From positions 1,423,501 to 1,487,500 of the forward strand of contig NZ_CP012332.1 in NCBI RefSeq assembly GCF_001263175.1: a stretch of 64,000 bases of DNA, read 5' to 3'. Below are positions 42,364 to 54,623 of the stretch, piece by piece (positions within the stretch are counted from its first letter, which is position 1; each line of letters starts with the position of its first letter). The DNA is from Vulgatibacter incomptus. GTDB lineage: Bacteria; Myxococcota; Myxococcia; Myxococcales; Vulgatibacteraceae. A program made the position numbers and the translations under genes. The notes beneath the pieces are model-generated. The model was not told the origin of the DNA. It worked only from the letters and a program-made list of their open reading frames with translations, and did not search any database.

Positions 42364-43140
42364 TCACGGCCTCGCTGTCTCTTCTTCGGGCTCGCAGATC
42401 CATCCTTCGGCAAACCAGCTCCCGATCGCGCGAAACGCCGCCTCGACGGGATCGCCCCGGTCCTCGAAGGCCGCGCAGACGACCTCGAGAGGCTCGCCAG
42501 CGCTGGCGAGAGCGAGCGCCTTGGCCTCGTCGGCCTGGACTTGGACGTGAAAGACCTCGAGCTCCCTTCGCCAGACCACGGCGAAGGAGGGCGCTCGATG
42601 CGCCGCCGGCACGGGGTGACCGTCCTCGAGCTGTTGCCAAACGTCGAGCACGTCGGAATCGAAGCGGAGCAACCGCAGGGCCGGGACGAGCTCCAGCGAC
42701 GCGCAAGAGAAGTCCCCGGCTGCCGCCATCTCACGGAGCATCGACGGGGAGGCCGTCGGCACAGCCGCCTCTTCGAACACCTCGGCGCGCGCCCATTCGA
42801 GGGCGGCGAGATCGCTGAGGTCCGGTCGCGAGCCGGGATGCTCCTTCAGATACTGGGGAAGACGTCGACCGAGCTGCGAGAGCGAGTGATGTACCGACGG
42901 ATGGACGTGAACGAATGCTTTTCCGAGCGTGTAGAACGCCTCGTCGCCCAGGAGCACGGCCAATTTGGGAAAGTCCTCACGCAGGACGTCGATCTGCCGC
43001 CACAGGTACATGTTGGCGTAGATCTCCATCCGGCTCGCGGCATCAAGCGCGGGCGTGCCAACGAAGGCGCCGCTCGGGTCACGTTTCCCCCGCCGCGTGG
43101 CGCTGGCCCAGAACAGCTCCTGGAGCTCGACGAGCCTCAT
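42364..43140 (-). CDS. DUF2063 (HvfC/BufC) family protein
   Basis: A 258-residue protein with the HvfC/BufC N-terminal domain: LVELQELFWASATRRG, RMEIYANMYLWRQIDVLRED and FPKLAVLLGDEAFYTLGKAFV, then HPSVHHSLSQLGRRLPQYL. The C-terminal region (residues 140-258) is more variable and may recognise the precursor peptide. In known clusters it is the obligate partner of the DUF692 enzyme. Its start overlaps the end of the DUF692 gene by 62 bp, which suggests translational coupling. Confidence 0.92.
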   Translation of the reverse strand: MRLVELQELFWASATRRGKRDPSGAFVGTPALDAASRMEIYANMYLWRQIDVLREDFPKLAVLLGDEAFYTLGKAFVHVHPSVHHSLSQLGRRLPQYLKEHPGSRPDLSDLAALEWARAEVFEEAAVPTASPSMLREMAAAGDFSCASLELVPALRLLRFDSDVLDVWQQLEDGHPVPAAHRAPSFAVVWRRELEVFHVQVQADEAKALALASAGEPLEVVCAAFEDRGDPVEAAFRAIGSWFAEGWICEPEEETARP

Positions 43141-43975
43141 CTTCCTTCCTCCCGAGAACCGACGCTTCGACCGCAGCCGCCTTCTGGCTCTCCGCCAAAA
43201 GAACGTCGAGATCCGGGATCCGGTCGTCCCACTCGATCAGGGTCGGCACTTTGCCGATGCGTTGCACCGCGAACGCGTAGAGCTCCCAGACCTCGGGTGC
43301 CACATGGCCGTCATGCGAGTCCAGGACGTACGTGCCCTTGTCGGTGTGTCCGGCGAGATGAATCTGGAGCACACGGGAGGCAGGCAAGGCCGCGATGTAC
43401 TCAGCTGGATCGAAGCCGTGATTGCGGCTGCTGACGTAGACGTTGTTCACATCGAGCAGAATTCCGCAGTCGGCGCGTTCGGCGATCTGCGTGAGGAACA
43501 CCTGCTCGGGCATGGTCGAAGCCCGGTAGGCCACGTAGGATGAGACGTTCTCGAGCAAGATCTGCCGGCCGAGGATCTCCTGCACCATGCTGACGCGCGA
43601 GACCACGTGCTCAAGCGCCTCGTTCGTGTAGGGGAGGGGCCACAGGTCGTGCGCGTAGCGGCCCCCGTGCCGACCCCAGCACAAGTGGTCCGATACGAGA
43701 GCCGGTTCGATCCGGCGGATGAGATCCTTCAGCTCCGCCAGGTATCGAACGTCCAGGCCCTCCGCAGCGCCGATGGACAGCGACACACCGTGGAGCGACA
43801 CGGGCATGTCCCGGCGCACCTTCTCCAGGACCGCGAGCGGCCTTCCTCCGCGTATCATGAAGTTCTCGCTGACGGCCTCGATCCAGTCGAGTCGCGGTCG
43901 CCCTTCGAAGAACTGGCCGAAGTGCTTCGGACGAAGTCCGACCCCGTGTCCAAGCTCCTGGCGCGTAATGGACAT
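43079..43975 (-). CDS. DUF692 multinuclear non-heme iron oxidase (BufB/HvfB)
   Basis: A 298-residue TIM-barrel enzyme of the MNIO family. Metal-ligand motifs are seen in order: HFGQFFEGRPRLDWIEAVSE, VSLHGVSLSIG, LVSDHLCWG, ILLENVSSYV, GILLDVNNVYVSSRNHGFD and LQIHLAGHTD with LIEWDD. The His, Glu, Asp and Asn positions agree with the family's di/tri-iron site. MNIOs oxidise cysteine residues of RiPP precursors, for example to oxazolone/thioamide or thiooxazole. The substrate is most likely the 88-residue protein coded 41 bp upstream. ATG 43975 gives the family-length protein. Confidence 0.94.
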   Translation of the reverse strand: MSITRQELGHGVGLRPKHFGQFFEGRPRLDWIEAVSENFMIRGGRPLAVLEKVRRDMPVSLHGVSLSIGAAEGLDVRYLAELKDLIRRIEPALVSDHLCWGRHGGRYAHDLWPLPYTNEALEHVVSRVSMVQEILGRQILLENVSSYVAYRASTMPEQVFLTQIAERADCGILLDVNNVYVSSRNHGFDPAEYIAALPASRVLQIHLAGHTDKGTYVLDSHDGHVAPEVWELYAFAVQRIGKVPTLIEWDDRIPDLDVLLAESQKAAAVEASVLGRKEDEARRAPGAVLGQRHAAGET

Positions 43976-44016
43976 GGTGAGTTGGCGTCCTACGCCCGCG
44001 CAGGACGCCACATCCT

Positions 44017-44283
44017 CTACTTCGCGACGGTGCCGCCCTTGTCGGCGCACGCCTTCGCGTCCTGCTCCATCGTGAAGCTCTGGCCCTTGCAGTTGTTCTG
44101 GCCTTTGCAGTCGTGTTGCGCGCTCTTGCAGTTGCCCTTGCCCTTGCAGTCGTTCGTCCCGTTGCATTTGACCGACTTGGATGCCGATTTGTCGGTCTTT
44201 CCTTCCGCATAGGCGGCCCCACCAGCGAACATCACCGCCAGGGCACCTGCGATCGCCGCGCCCTTCAAAGGCCCCATCTGCAT
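44017..44283 (-). CDS. Bufferin-type RiPP precursor (BufA2-like)
   Basis: An 88-residue precursor with a Sec signal peptide (residues 1-26, cleavage near AYA-EG) and a mature part with six cysteines (positions 40, 46, 52, 59, 65, 79). The core has two related C-x-G-x-N-x-C-K-G units: KCNGTNDCKGKGNC and CKGQNNCKGQ. This pattern is that of the BufA2 family of periplasmic metallophores (DUF2282-related). After signal cleavage and Cys oxidation by the MNIO, it would buffer copper or another metal in the periplasm. The ATG at 44283 has a GGGGGAG site. Confidence 0.88.
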   Translation of the reverse strand: MQMGPLKGAAIAGALAVMFAGGAAYAEGKTDKSASKSVKCNGTNDCKGKGNCKSAQHDCKGQNNCKGQSFTMEQDAKACADKGGTVAK

Positions 44284-44643
44284 CTCGTGCTCCCCCTTCT
44301 TGGTCCGCCCCCATGGCGGAACCCGTTCAGCACCTGCCAACTCGTCTGAGGTCTGTAAGCTGCGGCACACAGAGCGAGCCTCAGGTCGGAAACATGCGAG
44401 TGAGGATTCGGGAGGGCAACGTGCCCGAAAGGGGAAGGAAGAGGCGGACGACAGCAAGGTGCTCGGCACCACGGGAAGGGTCCTGCACGTCCACGGCGGG
44501 CACCGTTTCGTGTAGCGGGAGTGCCCACTTGCCTCGCACCTCCTCCTGACCTGCCCCCAAAAGAACGGGCCTATCTGCAGCGTGAGCCCAGCGGTGTAGG
44601 ATGGGTTCTTGCAGAAGGGGTCTGCCGAGCTGGGGGGTACGTC
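44284..44643. promoter_or_regulatory. Divergent promoter region of the bufferin operon
   Basis: This 360-bp gap carries no credible gene; short open frames here are Arg/Ser-rich shadows. It must contain the promoter of the minus-strand metallophore operon and of the plus-strand lipoprotein. I could not pick a convincing -10/-35 pair or metal-regulator operator by eye. Confidence 0.5.
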
Positions 44644-45471
44644 ATGCGACGGTTGGTCGAGACGGTGGTTCTCGCGGTTGCAGTCAGCGGTTGCAGCAGT
44701 CCGACGTCCACGCTCCCGCCTGAACCCGTGCACGAGGTCTTCCTCTATCCGGGCGACCTCATCACGAATTTCAAGGATGAGGCGCCTGGGCTCGTTCTCC
44801 ATGCCTCGGAAGCGGATTTCGACGAGGAATCAATCGCCTCGGCCATCGAAGAGTTGGCGGCTAACCTAGCGATTTACGAGTGGCCGAGCTTGAGGCAGCT
44901 CGATACCGCCGTCGAGCTCGTGCCGGGCCAGTACGACCAGGACCGGCTGCTGCATCTCCGTCTCATTGATGGCGCCTTGACGGACGGTTGGTACGCGATC
45001 GGCGTACGGGAGGTGCCGAGACCATTCTACTGGGGCGACCCGTCCGAGGTCGTGGAGCTCACAGATGGTCTGCGGGGCTCTCGCTTTCGTGTCGGGTCGG
45101 AGCCGTTCCTGCGGAGTGTTGCTCTCTGCGGAGGGGAGGCCGACGGCGGGGTTGCCTATTCATTCTTGAGTATCGAGTTCAGTGAGGCCGTCGTGTCTTC
45201 CGAGCCCGCGGCGGCCTTCGTCGAGGTGACTCAGCGGGGGGATCGGCTCTCCTGTGAGGGCTTCGAGCAACCTGGCCAGGACGGCCCCGTCGTCTACGTC
45301 TTCTGCCCGGTCGTCTCGCGTGGCACTCCTGTGACGGTTCAGGTTGCTGGGACTCTGGTCTCAGCCGAGGGCGTGCCGGTTCCGCCCGTCGACTTCACCA
45401 TCGTTCCAAACAGGGAATCGGTGGGACCGGGCAACTGCCAGACCGTCTGGATCAAGGACAAGACCTGGTAG
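44644..45471 (+). CDS. Lipoprotein, unknown function
   Basis: A 275-residue lipoprotein (lipobox VAVSGC, residues 12-17). The mature part has an acidic first half (DFDEESIASAIEELAANL) and a Big-like second half, with SFLSIEFSEAVVSSEPAAAF, VYVFCPVVSRGTPVTVQV and SAEGVPVPPVDFTI. The second half follows the pattern of bacterial Ig-like domains, in which a function of the type 'minimum/maximum' values is tested. The family was not recognised. The ATG at 44644 was preferred to the open frame upstream because it gives the signal peptide. Confidence 0.72.
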   Translation: MRRLVETVVLAVAVSGCSSPTSTLPPEPVHEVFLYPGDLITNFKDEAPGLVLHASEADFDEESIASAIEELAANLAIYEWPSLRQLDTAVELVPGQYDQDRLLHLRLIDGALTDGWYAIGVREVPRPFYWGDPSEVVELTDGLRGSRFRVGSEPFLRSVALCGGEADGGVAYSFLSIEFSEAVVSSEPAAAFVEVTQRGDRLSCEGFEQPGQDGPVVYVFCPVVSRGTPVTVQVAGTLVSAEGVPVPPVDFTIVPNRESVGPGNCQTVWIKDKTW

Positions 45472-46817: not shown

Positions 46818-47014
46818 CCGACGCCTGACCGGATTTGCCAGAGCGGGCTTGGAGCCATGAGGGGCACGTTGCCAAGCCCGCAGACAGCGAGCAGCAGGCC
46901 AGACGGTTCCTCGACAGCGCCCTCGGCGGGGGGACGATGCGGCTGACGCGGTCGAGGCTCAAAGCTCGTTCCATAGAGCTGCACCCGATTCCGCGTCGGG
47001 TCGCCCTACCGACC
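46818..47014. other. Left flank of the island
   Basis: No gene was seen. The short open frames here are shadows or end in the direct repeat. Confidence 0.4.
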
Positions 47015-47126
47015 CGATGGCCGATTGGCCATGCGGATTGGCACCAACAGCCCGGTAGGCTGCTTCCGTTTGACCCGCAAGCCCTCGGGCCGTAGGGTGC
47101 CGCGCGATGGAACGCAAGGTCTTCGT
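47015..47126. repeat. Left direct repeat (attL-like) of the island
   Basis: Positions 47059-47126 are identical over 68 bp to 53208-53275. A further 15-bp block (47015-47029) matches 53164-53178 in the same register, with a diverged section between. The constant offset is 6149 bp. The repeat contains the miaB upstream region, its ATG and the first 20 coding bases. Confidence 0.9.
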
Positions 47127-47440: not shown

Positions 47441-48766
47441 TTAGCTGCCCCTCCGAACAACGACCTCAACTCCTTTGCCGCCCGCTAGCTTGATGAGGTC
47501 GGAAGCGACGGTGTGAATCCCAACTGCGCCGTCGCGCTCGGAGTCCCGAGAATCGCGTTCCGGTGGCGTCCTCACAAACGATAGGTTCGCCATGTCCATG
47601 CGCACCTCGTTCTGCTTGTCTTCGGGCAGGGGAGCCAGGAAGGGTTCCAACGCCGCGAGTTTGAGTGCGAGCTCCTCGTCGGCCCTCGCTCGCTTCTGCT
47701 CACGCGCTCCCTGCCGTCCCGCATACGCAGCGAGTAGGCCAAAAGTTATTGTGACGAGCGCTCGTGCAGCGACGGAAGGCCATGTGAACTCGGCGTGGAA
47801 GTAGCCGAAGAAGTTGAAGTACGACGCGGACGCGAATACGACCAAGAGGACTAGCGATCCAACCGTGGTCCCTTGCCACCTGCGTGCTGCTTTCGTCGCC
47901 GCTGTTGTGGCCTTCTGGTACCCGGCTGTTACGCCGAGAGTTCCGATGACGCCCACCAGCTTCTCGACGGCGTCCTTCTGCTTGTTCATCTCGGATTGGA
48001 GCTTCTCTGCCGCCGCGACAAACTCTTGTCTCAAGCTCCTCAAGAGGTCGTCTCGCTGTTGCTCGGCTTCGGTCCGTAGCTCGGCAAGCGCCTTCAGTTC
48101 CGCCTCCCTCTTGGTGCGGGATTCGACGTCCTCGGCCTCTACAGCCGATTTTCGAGTCGCCTGCTCGTTAGCGAAGGCCGTCCGGTGCTCCGCTTCCACC
48201 GTGGCAAATCGTTCCGTTTGCGAGGAAGCGAGCGCGGCAAGGTTCGCCTTCTGCGTCTCAACCTCCTGACGGTGTGCAGCCAACTCCTCCTCGAACTTGC
48301 CAGCGTCATCGCGCGCCCCAAGGAACTTCGGACGCAGTTCCGCAATGGCATCGGACGCCACTTGCCGCAAATGATCGACCGCATCCTTCGCCGCCAGAAA
48401 CTCCTCGGTAGATCCGGGGAGCGCGATCCCCGCCAGAGAAGTAAGGGCTTGATCGAAGTAGTTGTTGGCGTGGTCGAGGTCGGCGGCGCTTCTGGTGCTG
48501 GCGTACGCTAGAACGTGCCCTTTCGCGTAGTTGATCGCGTCCGCGACCCCGCTCAGGGGACCAGGAAGAAGAAAGTACGAATCGACGCCGGCTAGGCGCT
48601 TGCCTATTGAGGCATGGAGCGCCCTCACACGGTTGATTGCGAAGATGTCGGCTGCGTCTGAGTTGGACGTTCTCGCCTGTCCCTCTGCTTGATCTAGAAC
48701 TGGTCCAAAAGAAGCGAGCGCCTCCCAAACCGGTAGCTCTTTGCCGCGAACAACCCATTTGTCCAT
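47441..48766 (-). CDS. Coiled-coil protein with two C-terminal membrane helices
   Basis: A 441-residue protein. Residues 1-145 are helical. Residues about 145-285 form a long, charged coiled coil (EEELAAHRQEVETQKANLAAL, ESRTKREAELKALAELRTEA). Two hydrophobic segments follow (TTVGSLVLLVVFASASYFN and ARALVTITFGLLAAYAG), then a cytosolic tail of about 80 residues. No family was recognised. It is the last gene of the island's minus-strand series, 360 bp after the TIR gene. The architecture (sensor-like coiled coil plus membrane pair) is compatible with a membrane effector, but that is speculation. Confidence 0.75.
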   Translation of the reverse strand: MDKWVVRGKELPVWEALASFGPVLDQAEGQARTSNSDAADIFAINRVRALHASIGKRLAGVDSYFLLPGPLSGVADAINYAKGHVLAYASTRSAADLDHANNYFDQALTSLAGIALPGSTEEFLAAKDAVDHLRQVASDAIAELRPKFLGARDDAGKFEEELAAHRQEVETQKANLAALASSQTERFATVEAEHRTAFANEQATRKSAVEAEDVESRTKREAELKALAELRTEAEQQRDDLLRSLRQEFVAAAEKLQSEMNKQKDAVEKLVGVIGTLGVTAGYQKATTAATKAARRWQGTTVGSLVLLVVFASASYFNFFGYFHAEFTWPSVAARALVTITFGLLAAYAGRQGAREQKRARADEELALKLAALEPFLAPLPEDKQNEVRMDMANLSFVRTPPERDSRDSERDGAVGIHTVASDLIKLAGGKGVEVVVRRGS

Positions 48767-49126: not shown

Positions 49127-50191
49127 TTACTTACGCTTGGCCAACTCCAACTTAGGGGCGAGTTCGTCGTCTTCATCCATGACCAAGTCTTCCGAATCCC
49201 AGAAGAGGTACACGTTGAGCCGCGCTGGATGATCGTGCTTCTTCTCGTAGTCCCGGTGAAACTCGGCCGTGGCGTTCTTCAGCATTGTCGAAAGCTTCTT
49301 CATCGCGTCGAAAACGTCGCGATTCGCCTGGGTCCCTTTCGTCGGCGAGGCCACCCAAATTCGCTCAAAACTAGCACTGTAGGTGTATGTGGTTTCGAGC
49401 ATGCCCCGCAGTTCTGCGTCGATTGCCGCACTCTCCAAGTGGCCCTCAAGCACCAAGTCATGCCCGTTGGCGTCGTGCCGGAACGCGTAGCGGACCACAT
49501 CAGGCAACTCGGCGAGCCGCTCGCGCAGGGCCCCGACGAGGAGCGCGAACTCTTTCTTGTCCGACTCCAAGGTGCGCTTGGGTGATGGTGCGGCGGGGGT
49601 TGACGTGTTTCCGGAGGACTTCGTGGCCTGCTCGGGCGTGGCGCCCCTCGCCAAATGCGCATCCAGCCCTTTTTCGAACTTGGTGAGAGCGGCCGAGAAC
49701 GTGTTGAAGCCGTTGCGCTTCAGCCAATCCCCCCCACAACCATCCGGGCCAAACCTGTCGTAGAGCTCGCCCAGGTCTTTCGTGCTTGCGAGCGAGAGGC
49801 ACTGGATCCCGGCTAGGACTCCCGAGAGTTTTTCGAACTCCAGCGGAGGCACGATGACGGGAACCAGTCGTCCCTCCATCGCCCAGGCCGCTCCGAGCTC
49901 GGCTACGGCGAACGGCCTCTCCATGTACCTCGGCGTAACTAGGCAGACTACGACGCCGGCATCAACGAGAGCTGACCTAATGGCGGGATTGAAGTTGGCA
50001 CCACTGGGAACGGGCGAGGTTTCCGCCGAGGTGTTGAAGATCTCCGTCGCGGGAATGCCGAGCCCCCGTACGAGCAGCGTGTCGACGAAGTAGTTGACCA
50101 GCTCAGCGTCATCGCCCGCGTGACTAACGAAGACGTGTCGCGAGGGCGGGGTCATCTGCGGCTGGCGGTTCATTGCACCGGGCTGAGTCAT
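49127..50191 (-). CDS. TIR-domain protein
   Basis: A 354-residue protein. Residues 18-150 form a TIR domain: HVFVSHAGDDAELVNYFVDT (strand A and box 1), IFNTSAETSPVPSGANF (BB-loop region), VVVCLVTPRYMERPFAVAELG with a candidate catalytic Glu in the AELGAAW helix, and VPVIVPPLEFEKL. A linker and an unassigned C-terminal domain (residues 205-354; VVRYAFRHDANGHDLVLEGH, LNVYLFWDSEDL) follow. Bacterial TIR domains of defence systems degrade NAD+ or make cyclic-ADP-ribose signals. Its ATG overlaps the stop of the upstream gene by ATGA, so the two are translationally coupled. Confidence 0.88.
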   Translation of the reverse strand: MTQPGAMNRQPQMTPPSRHVFVSHAGDDAELVNYFVDTLLVRGLGIPATEIFNTSAETSPVPSGANFNPAIRSALVDAGVVVCLVTPRYMERPFAVAELGAAWAMEGRLVPVIVPPLEFEKLSGVLAGIQCLSLASTKDLGELYDRFGPDGCGGDWLKRNGFNTFSAALTKFEKGLDAHLARGATPEQATKSSGNTSTPAAPSPKRTLESDKKEFALLVGALRERLAELPDVVRYAFRHDANGHDLVLEGHLESAAIDAELRGMLETTYTYSASFERIWVASPTKGTQANRDVFDAMKKLSTMLKNATAEFHRDYEKKHDHPARLNVYLFWDSEDLVMDEDDELAPKLELAKRK

Positions 50192-51285
50192 GGGGAGATT
50201 GTACTAGCTCGCGCCTGAATCGACGGCATCAAAGAAGCTGCACCACCGAGCCTCTCGCCGGGCACTCGCGGCCATGCCAAGATGACCCCGAGAGAGTCAC
50301 AGAGGTCCTGCCTCTCCGGGTCATTCGGCTCCCGCTCGGTGACGAGATGGGCCAGAACGGACACGCCCGGTCGCGTCAGACGCTGCCTGTAACGAAGAAC
50401 CTTGCCGAGCCCAAGCCGGAGCTGGCGCTCCTCGTTCTCGGCGGTCAGCGATTTCACTTCGGCGACGCAGAGAGTCTCTTCGGCACGCCACAGCAGGTCG
50501 TAGGAGGGATCGTCCTTGGTCGGCGACGGCGGAGTGTAGCCACGAGAGGCCACTAGGTCCGCCAAGAGGCTCTGCGTCTTGGCGTGCCCCCTGTGGCCCC
50601 GCTCGATCGCCGCTGGGTCAATGGGGAAAGGGTCGATCTCCGGGACCGCCACAGCTTCGTCGGCGCGGAAGTACTCGCGGCCCGGCTCCGAAGGCTCGAC
50701 CGAGGCAAGAGCTGGAGCCGGCAACGGCCGCTTCGCTTGCCCCTGCATAGCCGCGGTGCTGAGCTTGGGGAACGCTGCAACAACCTCTGCAGGCATCTTG
50801 AACAAGTAGCCCTGCCCGCAGCGCACCCCATCACTCCGAACCTGGAACGGAAGGTAGAGGTTCACCTTGGCGTGCTTGGCTTTCACCTCGCTGTAAGCCG
50901 CCCTCAGTGCATCAACGTTCGCCCGCAGTTCGTCCAGGTGAAGCGGGTCAGGGAGTTCAAAGGCGCCGTGCAGTCCACAGAAGAATCCCGGCCGTGCGAA
51001 GGGGGCTTCCGCCCGACTCGCGGTTCCGCGTGCACCCCACACTGCCGCGGCTTCCCAGTGTCCGCCCTGGGCTACCGACCACGATTCGATCCGGTTGCGC
51101 TCAGTCGAGTAGTGGAAAACCGCGTCGCCCTCCTCGACCTCGCGCACGAGGGAGTAGCTCCAGTACGACCTTTCGCCCTTGCGGGTTTGAGGAGCGTGGA
51201 GGTCCGAGCCAATGTCGGAGCGGGCGGTCGCCTCCATCCAGAATCGCTGCGCAGGGTCAGCCACCCACCACCGGCTAAGTTTCAT
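50188..51285 (-). CDS. EVE/PUA-like domain plus PD-(D/E)XK nuclease-like protein
   Basis: A 365-residue protein with two parts. Residues 1-150 resemble EVE/PUA-type modified-base readers: WWVADPAQRFWMEATARSD, YWSYSLVREVEEGDAVFHYS and RIESWSVAQGGHWEAA, then VNLYLPFQV with GYLFKMPAEVVAAFP. Residues 225-330 look like a restriction-type nuclease fold: HAKTQSLLADLVASRGY, an Asp in SYDLLW, then the E-x-K motif CVAEVKSL and a helix with RQLRLGLGKVLRYRQRL. This pairing suggests type IV restriction of modified DNA. Both domain calls rest on pattern only. Stop and start overlap with the TIR gene. Confidence 0.7.
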   Translation of the reverse strand: MKLSRWWVADPAQRFWMEATARSDIGSDLHAPQTRKGERSYWSYSLVREVEEGDAVFHYSTERNRIESWSVAQGGHWEAAAVWGARGTASRAEAPFARPGFFCGLHGAFELPDPLHLDELRANVDALRAAYSEVKAKHAKVNLYLPFQVRSDGVRCGQGYLFKMPAEVVAAFPKLSTAAMQGQAKRPLPAPALASVEPSEPGREYFRADEAVAVPEIDPFPIDPAAIERGHRGHAKTQSLLADLVASRGYTPPSPTKDDPSYDLLWRAEETLCVAEVKSLTAENEERQLRLGLGKVLRYRQRLTRPGVSVLAHLVTEREPNDPERQDLCDSLGVILAWPRVPGERLGGAASLMPSIQARASTISP

Positions 51286-51401: not shown

Positions 51402-52091
51402 TCAATTGGCCAGCGCTGTGACGGCGCTGACGGCCGCAGCGAGGAAGCCAAGGACGGCACCCGCGAGCTTGAGCCAGAGGGGCCAGCCCGCTCCTCCCTC
51501 CGCGTTCGGGTCGATCTTCGTGACTCGGACGTAATTCCCATCTCCGGTGATGACGCGGTTTTGGTCGCCCGTGATGATGACGCTCGAGCCTACGTTCGCG
51601 CTGAGCTGCTCGGTTGCGACTGGCCGGACGAATTTCGCGCTGGCCTTGATCGCCCGGATCTCTGTCGAGGCCACCTGCTCCAGTACAACCACCATCGTGC
51701 TTTCGGACCGGTCTCGAGTTTCGAAGTAGCCCGGGAGCCGGTCGAGATACGCGTAGGATCCGATCACCGCCCGTTCGATCAGGCCTTCGAGCAGCGTGAC
51801 GGCCTCGCTCGCAAGGAACTGTGAGGTGGCAGGTTCTGGCACCGCCTCGGCCTTGAACTCCGCGACAACCGTTCGCACCAGCGTCTCCAAATGCCGATGG
51901 ATGGCGGTGGAGAAGATCGGGGAGTCGGCCGTCACCTTGGTGCCACTACGGGCCTGTTCTACGTGCAGCTTGCCGATGGCTTGCGATAGCGCCGCTCGCG
52001 TCACCACGAGGTGCTTGGCCCAGAGCGCCCGGAGGAGTTCGGCAGCTTCATTTGGAGACGCGTTCTCGGCGGCGCTGGTGGTCTTCGTCAC
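51402..52091 (-). CDS. Membrane-anchored protein with GDxNxVxGDGN motif
   Basis: A 229-residue protein. The helical body (residues 12-150; LLRALWAKHLVVTRAALSQA, FLASEAVTLLEGLIERAV) leads to a short beta segment, GSSVIITGDQNRVITGDGNYV. A C-terminal transmembrane helix ends the protein (WPLWLKLAGAVLGFLAAAVS). The G-D-x-N pair recalls small hairpin motifs found in some NTPase-linked conflict systems, but I cannot name the family. Its start overlaps the preceding 83-residue gene by 44 bp. Confidence 0.7.
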   Translation of the reverse strand: MTKTTSAAENASPNEAAELLRALWAKHLVVTRAALSQAIGKLHVEQARSGTKVTADSPIFSTAIHRHLETLVRTVVAEFKAEAVPEPATSQFLASEAVTLLEGLIERAVIGSYAYLDRLPGYFETRDRSESTMVVVLEQVASTEIRAIKASAKFVRPVATEQLSANVGSSVIITGDQNRVITGDGNYVRVTKIDPNAEGGAGWPLWLKLAGAVLGFLAAAVSAVTALAN

Positions 52092-53025: not shown

Positions 53026-53163
53026 TTCGATCGCGTCGCGGAAGTCGGCCAGCTGTCCTTCCTCCGCATTCTTCCCGCGGAATGGCCGAGAAGACGAGAT
53101 CGTCTTAGTCCGACGTTCCTCGACGCTTGGCTTTCGAATCCGAGTTGGATCGTCCTAACGGCA
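53026..53163. promoter_or_regulatory. Right end of the island, probable promoter of the chain
   Basis: There is no gene here. It lies upstream of the first minus-strand island gene and upstream of the right direct repeat, so it probably holds divergent promoters. No consensus was clear. Confidence 0.35.
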
Positions 53164-53275
53164 CGATGGCCGATTGGCGACGCGGATCGCCTCTATGCGC
53201 TCGGTCAGCTGCTTCCGTTTGACCCGCAAGCCCTCGGGCCGTAGGGTGCCGCGCGATGGAACGCAAGGTCTTCGT
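53164..53275. repeat. Right direct repeat (attR-like) of the island
   Basis: The partner of 47015-47126, with 68 identical bases at 53208-53275. It supplies the upstream region, the start codon and the first 20 bases of the intact miaB gene. Confidence 0.9.
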
Positions 53276-54623
53276 ACATACCTTCGGCTGCCAGATGAAC
53301 GAGGCCGACTCCTCGCGGATGATCGAGTCCCTGGCGAAGTCCGGCTACGCCCAGACCCAGCAGGCGGACGACGCGGACCTGATCCTCCTCAACACCTGCG
53401 CCATCCGGGAGAAGAGCGAGCAGAAGCTCCTCTCCGCGCTCGGGCGGTACCGGCCGATGAAGCTCGCCCGCGGCGCGCGGATCGGCGTGGGCGGCTGCGT
53501 GGCCCAGCAGGAGAAGGATCGGCTGCTGAAGAAGGTGCCGTACCTGGACTTCGTCTTCGGGCCCGACCAGGTGGGCAACCTCCCCGAGATCCTCGATCGC
53601 GTGGAGAGCGAGAACGTTCGCCTGGCCGAGACGGCCTGGCTCGACTCGTCCACCTACGTCTTCCCCCGCGCCGACGCCGAGTTCGCCCGCGGCAAGACGA
53701 CTGCCTTCGTCTCGGCGATGAAGGGGTGCAACAACGTCTGCTCCTTCTGCGTGGTCCCTTACACCCGCGGCCGCGAGGTCTCGCGGGGCGTGGACGACCT
53801 TCTGGGTGAGGTGGCCGACCTGGCGGCGGTGGGCGTCCGTGAGATCACGCTCATCGGCCAGAACGTGAACTCCTACGAGGGTGGGGTGAGCTTCGCCGAG
53901 CTCCTCCGCCGCACCGCAAACGTGCCTGGTGTCGAGCGCGTGCGCTTTACGACCAGCCACCCGCACGACCTCTCGGACGAGCTGATCGCGCTTTTCGCCG
54001 AAGAGCCGAAGGTGATGCCACACTTCCACCTCCCGGTGCAGAGCGGCTCCGAGCCGGTGCTGAAGCGGATGCGGCGCGACTACACGATCGCCTGGTATCT
54101 GGACCGCCTCGAGAGGCTGCGGGCTGCGAGGCCCGGCATCGCGATCACCACCGACATCATCGTCGGCTTCCTCGGCGAGACCGACGAGGACTTCGAGCGG
54201 ACGATGGAGCTGGTGGAGAAGGTGCGCTACGAGAACGCCTTCTCGTTCATCTTCAGCCCAAGGCCGCACACCACGGCGATCCGCCACCTCCACGACTGGG
54301 GCGAGATCCCGAAGGAGGTCGCGACGGCGCGGCTGGTGCGGCTGCAGGCCCTGCTCCGCGAGCACTCCTGGTCCTACTATTCCGCGTGCGTCGGCAGCGA
54401 GGTCGAGGTGCTCGTGGAGGGGCCCAGCCGCTACGACCCCGAGAAGCGCTTCGGCCGCACTCCCGAGAACCGCGTCGTGAACTTCGAGGGCACCGCCGAG
54501 ACGGGCTCGCTCGTCCGCGTGCGGATCGAGGACGCGACGCCCAACGCCCTCTCGGGCGTCCAGGTGGGCTTCGAATCCCCCAGGGCGGTGAAGGCGCCGG
54601 TGCGGCTCGCGGTGGTGGGGTGA
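53256..54623 (+). CDS. miaB: tRNA-2-methylthio-N6-dimethylallyladenosine synthase
   Basis: A 455-residue radical-SAM methylthiotransferase that adds the 2-methylthio group to i6A37 of tRNA. The N-terminal MTTase domain has cysteines in TFGCQMNEADS, LNTCAIRE and GGCVAQQ. The radical-SAM cluster is KGCNNVCSFCVVPYTRG, and the TRAM domain is at the C-terminus (VGSEVEVLVEGPS). The ATG and first six codons lie inside the island's right repeat; the protein is complete. A VanZ-like gene follows 7 bp after the stop. Confidence 0.97.
   Translation: MERKVFVHTFGCQMNEADSSRMIESLAKSGYAQTQQADDADLILLNTCAIREKSEQKLLSALGRYRPMKLARGARIGVGGCVAQQEKDRLLKKVPYLDFVFGPDQVGNLPEILDRVESENVRLAETAWLDSSTYVFPRADAEFARGKTTAFVSAMKGCNNVCSFCVVPYTRGREVSRGVDDLLGEVADLAAVGVREITLIGQNVNSYEGGVSFAELLRRTANVPGVERVRFTTSHPHDLSDELIALFAEEPKVMPHFHLPVQSGSEPVLKRMRRDYTIAWYLDRLERLRAARPGIAITTDIIVGFLGETDEDFERTMELVEKVRYENAFSFIFSPRPHTTAIRHLHDWGEIPKEVATARLVRLQALLREHSWSYYSACVGSEVEVLVEGPSRYDPEKRFGRTPENRVVNFEGTAETGSLVRVRIEDATPNALSGVQVGFESPRAVKAPVRLAVVG

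Follow-up and report, generated by a model that had tools for sequence, protein, structure and literature searches.

We regard it as fairly probable that two overlapping genes of Vulgatibacter incomptus form a two-gene defence cassette, in which a type IV-like modification-dependent restriction enzyme is paired with a TIR NADase, the two proteins probably acting independently and the second position being open to exchange. Modification-dependent restriction enzymes and TIR proteins are both encoded by known kinds of defence gene; the first protein combines an EVE domain of the DNA-restriction subtype with a PD-(D/E)XK nuclease domain, which would extend modification-dependent restriction enzymes beyond the EVE-HNH family. 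The window, by which we mean the whole 64,000-nucleotide stretch analyzed here, covers positions 1423501-1487500 of a genome that consists of one contig (4,350,553 bases) and belongs to the Myxococcota, the phylum that also includes Myxococcus xanthus AM003 and Corallococcus praedator.

A coupled gene pair on a repeat-bounded island

Both genes lie on the minus strand. The first (EVE-PD-(D/E)XK; 50188..51285) is an open reading frame (ORF) of 365 amino acids encoding protein 1, and the second (TIR; 49127..50191) is an ORF of 354 amino acids encoding protein 2. As read directly from the sequence, the end of gene 1 and the start of gene 2 share an ATGA stop/start motif (50188..50191, minus strand). 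An earlier note on this DNA had described an operon-like coupling of two genes by such a motif, and the 4-nt overlap at 50191-50188 bears it out; the two genes are probably co-translated, yet their products probably act independently. Both ORFs are intact and encode the expected catalytic residues. Comparison of the nuclease gene with its Myxococcus xanthus copy (dN 0.19, dS 1.34) shows that the nuclease family is under purifying selection, and we take both ORFs to be real genes because relatives exist and because dN for the nuclease is far below dS.

The pair is located on a small, horizontally acquired island, where the earlier note had also placed it, and the boundaries are now sharper owing to an exact 68-nt direct repeat. 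The left copy (47059..47126, plus strand) consists of the miaB promoter region and the first 20 nt of miaB and marks the island edge, while the right copy (53208..53275, plus strand) lies at the real start of miaB (53256..54623, plus strand). These 68 nt are the core of a 141-nt direct repeat (86%; 46986-47126 and 53135-53275), no further copy of which was found elsewhere in the genome. The repeat brackets five same-strand ORFs over about 6.1 kb, with a G+C content of 63.5% for the island versus 66.8% for the window, and the arrangement has the appearance of an element integrated site-specifically at the start of miaB (5' end). An integrase was not detected in the island ORFs scanned, and a scan covering few promoter types found no sigma-70-like promoter on the island. 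Relatives carry miaB with different upstream genes, and a clean empty site was not found among them.

Two flanking island ORFs were considered as further members of the system. The upstream one (51402..52091, minus strand; 229 amino acids) shows, as judged by eye, motifs of the GDxN type and a membrane segment at its C-terminus; it matches no family and has no clear relative in the rest of the phylum. The downstream one (47441..48766, minus strand; 441 amino acids) has, again by eye, a coiled coil and likely membrane helices; it gave weak matches only to known families and is likewise nearly absent from the phylum. Neither gene has a convincing match to a defence family or travels with gene 1 or gene 2, and membership of either in the system is unsupported. 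Elsewhere in the window, a gene for an MbnB/TglH/ChrH-family RiPP enzyme, a DUF2063 gene and, upstream, a small Cys-containing, signal-peptide-like ORF (42364-44802, minus strand) look like a metal-linked RiPP operon.

An EVE domain fused to a PD-(D/E)XK nuclease

The N-terminus of protein 1 (residues ~1-190) is a VcaM4I-type EVE domain of the DNA-restriction subtype. VcaM4I was the top PDB match of the N-domain profile (6yex; E 0.0071), hhalign aligned the N-domain with VcaM4I-type plasmid proteins (P 96.4, E 1.3e-9) and a Foldseek search with the protein 1 model ranked VcaM4I first (prob 1.00, E 1.6e-3), the two structures superposing at Z 7.8. Because the protein 1 model is poor overall (mean pLDDT 51, with the EVE part mostly <60), the EVE call stands on the profiles, the residues and the Foldseek match. 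In VcaM4I, residues E15, P24, Q128 and Y130 touch the flipped 5mC/5hmC or occupy its place, and cutting is impaired in the Y130A and E15A mutants (PMC7897488). The HMMER alignment maps these four positions to pocket residues E18, P32, Q158 and Y160 of protein 1, of which E18 and P32 are invariant and Q158/Y160 are present in all five copies that extend that far. Four of the five members of the VcaM4I pocket and wedge set (E15, P24, W82, Q128 and Y130) are in this way aligned and conserved, the counterpart of W82 being uncertain, with W83 as the candidate.

The C-terminus (residues ~220-350) is an XisH-like PD-(D/E)XK nuclease. Pfam returned a PD-(D/E)XK match only, below threshold; the profile of the C-terminal domain retrieves XisH, and the nuclease model matches Can2, Cdn1, EndoMS, XisH and McrC at Z 9-11. 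The putative active site (D263 and E276-V-K278) gives the D...ExK arrangement of the superfamily on an alpha-beta core, and D263, E276 and K278 are invariant across all 10 aligned relatives. Together with the VcaM4I matches, these results substantiate the suggestion in the earlier note of a modified-base reader fused to a PD-(D/E)XK-like nuclease.

Each half also occurs with other partners. The N-terminal EVE domain is fused to NOV_C in relatives at two loci (L054 and L061), and the same nuclease domain is joined to BRCT-like domains (L057:7949-8743, minus strand, Actinomycetota, Pfam E 0.047; L059, by eye) or to the methylase-associated MTaX1 domain in Actinomycetota (L055:7844-8836, minus strand), so protein 1 is modular. 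Among its closest known parallels is the VcaM4I-type EVE-HNH family, with which it shares the subtype of EVE domain and its N-terminal position, conserved base-flipping and wedge residues, a C-terminal nuclease and the lack of a visible methyltransferase partner. In contrast to that family, the nuclease here is of the XisH-like PD-(D/E)XK type rather than HNH, and a second gene overlaps by 4 nt. Judged from its domains, protein 1 would work like the EVE-HNH enzymes without being a member of the family.

A TIR protein with its own C-terminal domain

Protein 2 carries an N-terminal TIR domain (residues ~17-170; TIR_2 match, E 6.7e-11) with a predicted catalytic glutamate, E98. SpbK is its best match in both PADLOC and the PDB, the model superposes on SpbK at Z 16.6, and E98 falls at the aligned glutamate of SpbK and is invariant in relatives. 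A TIR fold with a catalytic glutamate is what characterizes TIR-domain NADases, and protein 2 is probably a NADase of the single-gene kind that would destroy NAD+. After a linker whose length varies within the family comes a C-terminal domain (residues ~208-333) that is conserved among relatives and confidently predicted (pLDDT mostly 68-93) as helices and a beta hairpin. The PDB matches in a second comparison with the TIR model were all taken up by TIR domains; by topology only, the modelled C-terminal domain resembles a winged helix. The TIR_2 match, the SpbK model match and the conservation of residues 208-333 agree with the previous description of a TIR protein with an additional C-terminal domain.

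SpbK, encoded on ICEBs1 of Bacillus subtilis, is thus the closest solved TIR protein by sequence and model, is likewise borne on a mobile element and shares the aligned catalytic glutamate. The two differ in architecture: SpbK has an N-terminal sensor and a C-terminal TIR domain, whereas protein 2 has the TIR domain first and the extra domain last (TIR match at 17-141 of 354 in protein 2 versus 137-259 of SpbK). Thoeris also has a TIR component, and protein 2 gave weak ThsB/ThcB4 matches, but the ThcB4 score was 24.3 bits against a cut-off of 220 and neither ThsA nor a type III Thoeris effector was found among the island ORFs scanned, which sets the locus apart from Thoeris.

Second genes, prophage settings and proposed modes of action

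Three intact EVE-nuclease genes were found, and all three are followed, at a 4-nt overlap, by a second gene that is different each time. The M. xanthus AM003 nuclease (L007/L027) is 72% identical to protein 1 and is followed, likewise with an ATGA overlap, by a DUF4238 gene (E 5.5e-30); the Corallococcus praedator nuclease (L008/L028) is 31% identical, and the gene after it, which also starts within an ATGA overlap, encodes a mostly hydrophobic protein of 105 amino acids. Genome G031 has a further nuclease copy (L009), which carries a frameshift. The DUF4238 family, distinct from the TIR protein of the window and absent from this island, includes a single-gene defence system of P2-like phages that protects Escherichia coli against T7 (PMC9122126). 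The site that follows the nuclease gene is best read as a slot for exchangeable genes, a reading supported by three cases because only three intact EVE-nuclease genes were found. A pattern scan of genome contigs detected the nuclease only in M. xanthus AM003, C. praedator and a Micromonospora fragment, and distant cases may be missed because the scan patterns were strict. Scanning a viral collection with the nuclease profile yielded two more nuclease-domain relatives, the same scan with the EVE-NOV_C protein added nothing, and no nuclease relative was found in a phage collection.

The genes and their overlap, the domains with their conserved active-site residues, the repeats that bound the island, the three second genes and the prophage location of relatives are computed features; from them we infer a mode of action, with an anti-phage effect, its trigger and a division of labour between the two proteins. 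Incoming phage DNA would be read by the EVE domain, which would flip out a modified base (by analogy with VcaM4I, probably a modified cytosine), and the PD-(D/E)XK domain would cut the DNA close to the flipped base. The C-terminal domain of protein 2 probably senses infection and gathers the TIR domains, and the resulting assembly may destroy NAD+ and arrest growth when restriction fails.

An alternative idea, akin to the two-gene unit of the earlier note, is that the two proteins form one integrated system in which the EVE-nuclease acts as the sensor and turns the TIR protein on when it binds or cuts modified DNA. The ATGA overlap, which implies translational coupling, speaks for this, and activation through a partner is common among TIR proteins, Thoeris and SPARTA being examples. 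A fixed EVE-nuclease and TIR unit, for which conserved co-occurrence was looked for, must nevertheless be rejected: of 195 Myxococcota genomes, 6 encode relatives of protein 1 and 9 encode relatives of protein 2, the two sets overlap only in the genome studied here (roughly as expected by chance, P about 0.25), and the nuclease relatives have other second genes. The other partner was absent from the checked neighbourhoods of the relatives of either protein, and no publication describing the pair was found in the literature searched. Neighbouring genes of these relatives point to prophages. In C. praedator (L008) the nuclease gene adjoins portal and terminase genes, and the same protein recurs on a viral-collection contig (L030); in M. 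xanthus AM003 (L007) the surroundings of the nuclease gene include an antirepressor (E 3.5e-51) and a weak match to a small terminase subunit; and the closest TIR relatives (L022, L023 and L031) sit beside terminase genes without a nuclease. Relatives of each protein are therefore cargo of myxobacterial (Myxococcaceae) prophages, and the TIR protein is unlikely to need the nuclease, because its relatives beside prophage terminase genes lack one. Given these settings, the replacement of TIR by DUF4238 behind a 72%-identical nuclease and the conserved C-terminal domain that the TIR protein has of its own, we consider an integrated system unlikely.

It could also be that two prophage-type cargo genes have come to lie side by side by chance on a decaying island, each functioning, or failing to, by itself and their overlap having no functional meaning. 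In favour of this, the pair was observed a single time, each family is rare and travels as separate prophage cargo, and the island has no detected integrase; but neither ORF is disrupted and both retain the catalytic residues, the nuclease family is under purifying selection and every intact nuclease gene is followed, at a 4-nt overlap, by a second gene, which makes chance adjacency quite improbable. Another possibility, that the EVE-nuclease does not restrict DNA but serves as a regulator, a toxin or a reader of RNA modifications, is very improbable. Many EVE domains do have links to RNA and to settings outside defence (PMC7641849; PMC7897488), but this one is of the VcaM4I subtype that restricts DNA, carries the flipping residues of that subtype and is fused to a restriction-type nuclease.

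The reading of a restriction enzyme and a largely independent TIR NADase can be taken further, to a version for which we see a small chance: myxobacterial mobile elements may carry a modular family of operons in which EVE-PD-(D/E)XK is always the first gene and the second gene is an exchangeable effector (TIR, DUF4238 or a small hydrophobic protein) that acts once restriction is overwhelmed, in effect a type IV enzyme with a plug-in suicide module. If the second gene is such an exchangeable back-up effector, these loci would offer a natural comparison of suicide genes behind one sensor-nuclease and a way to ask whether restriction and abortive infection are linked.

Two observations were made around DUF4238 genes. 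Downstream of the one in M. xanthus AM003, a single protein (L007:11944-13062, minus strand) combines a Schlafen AlbA_2 domain with a PilA-type pilin segment. On a Mesorhizobium plasmid (L064:1647-5074), a DUF4238 gene lies two genes ahead of a TIR gene of the same family as gene 2, so that the two partner types meet again.
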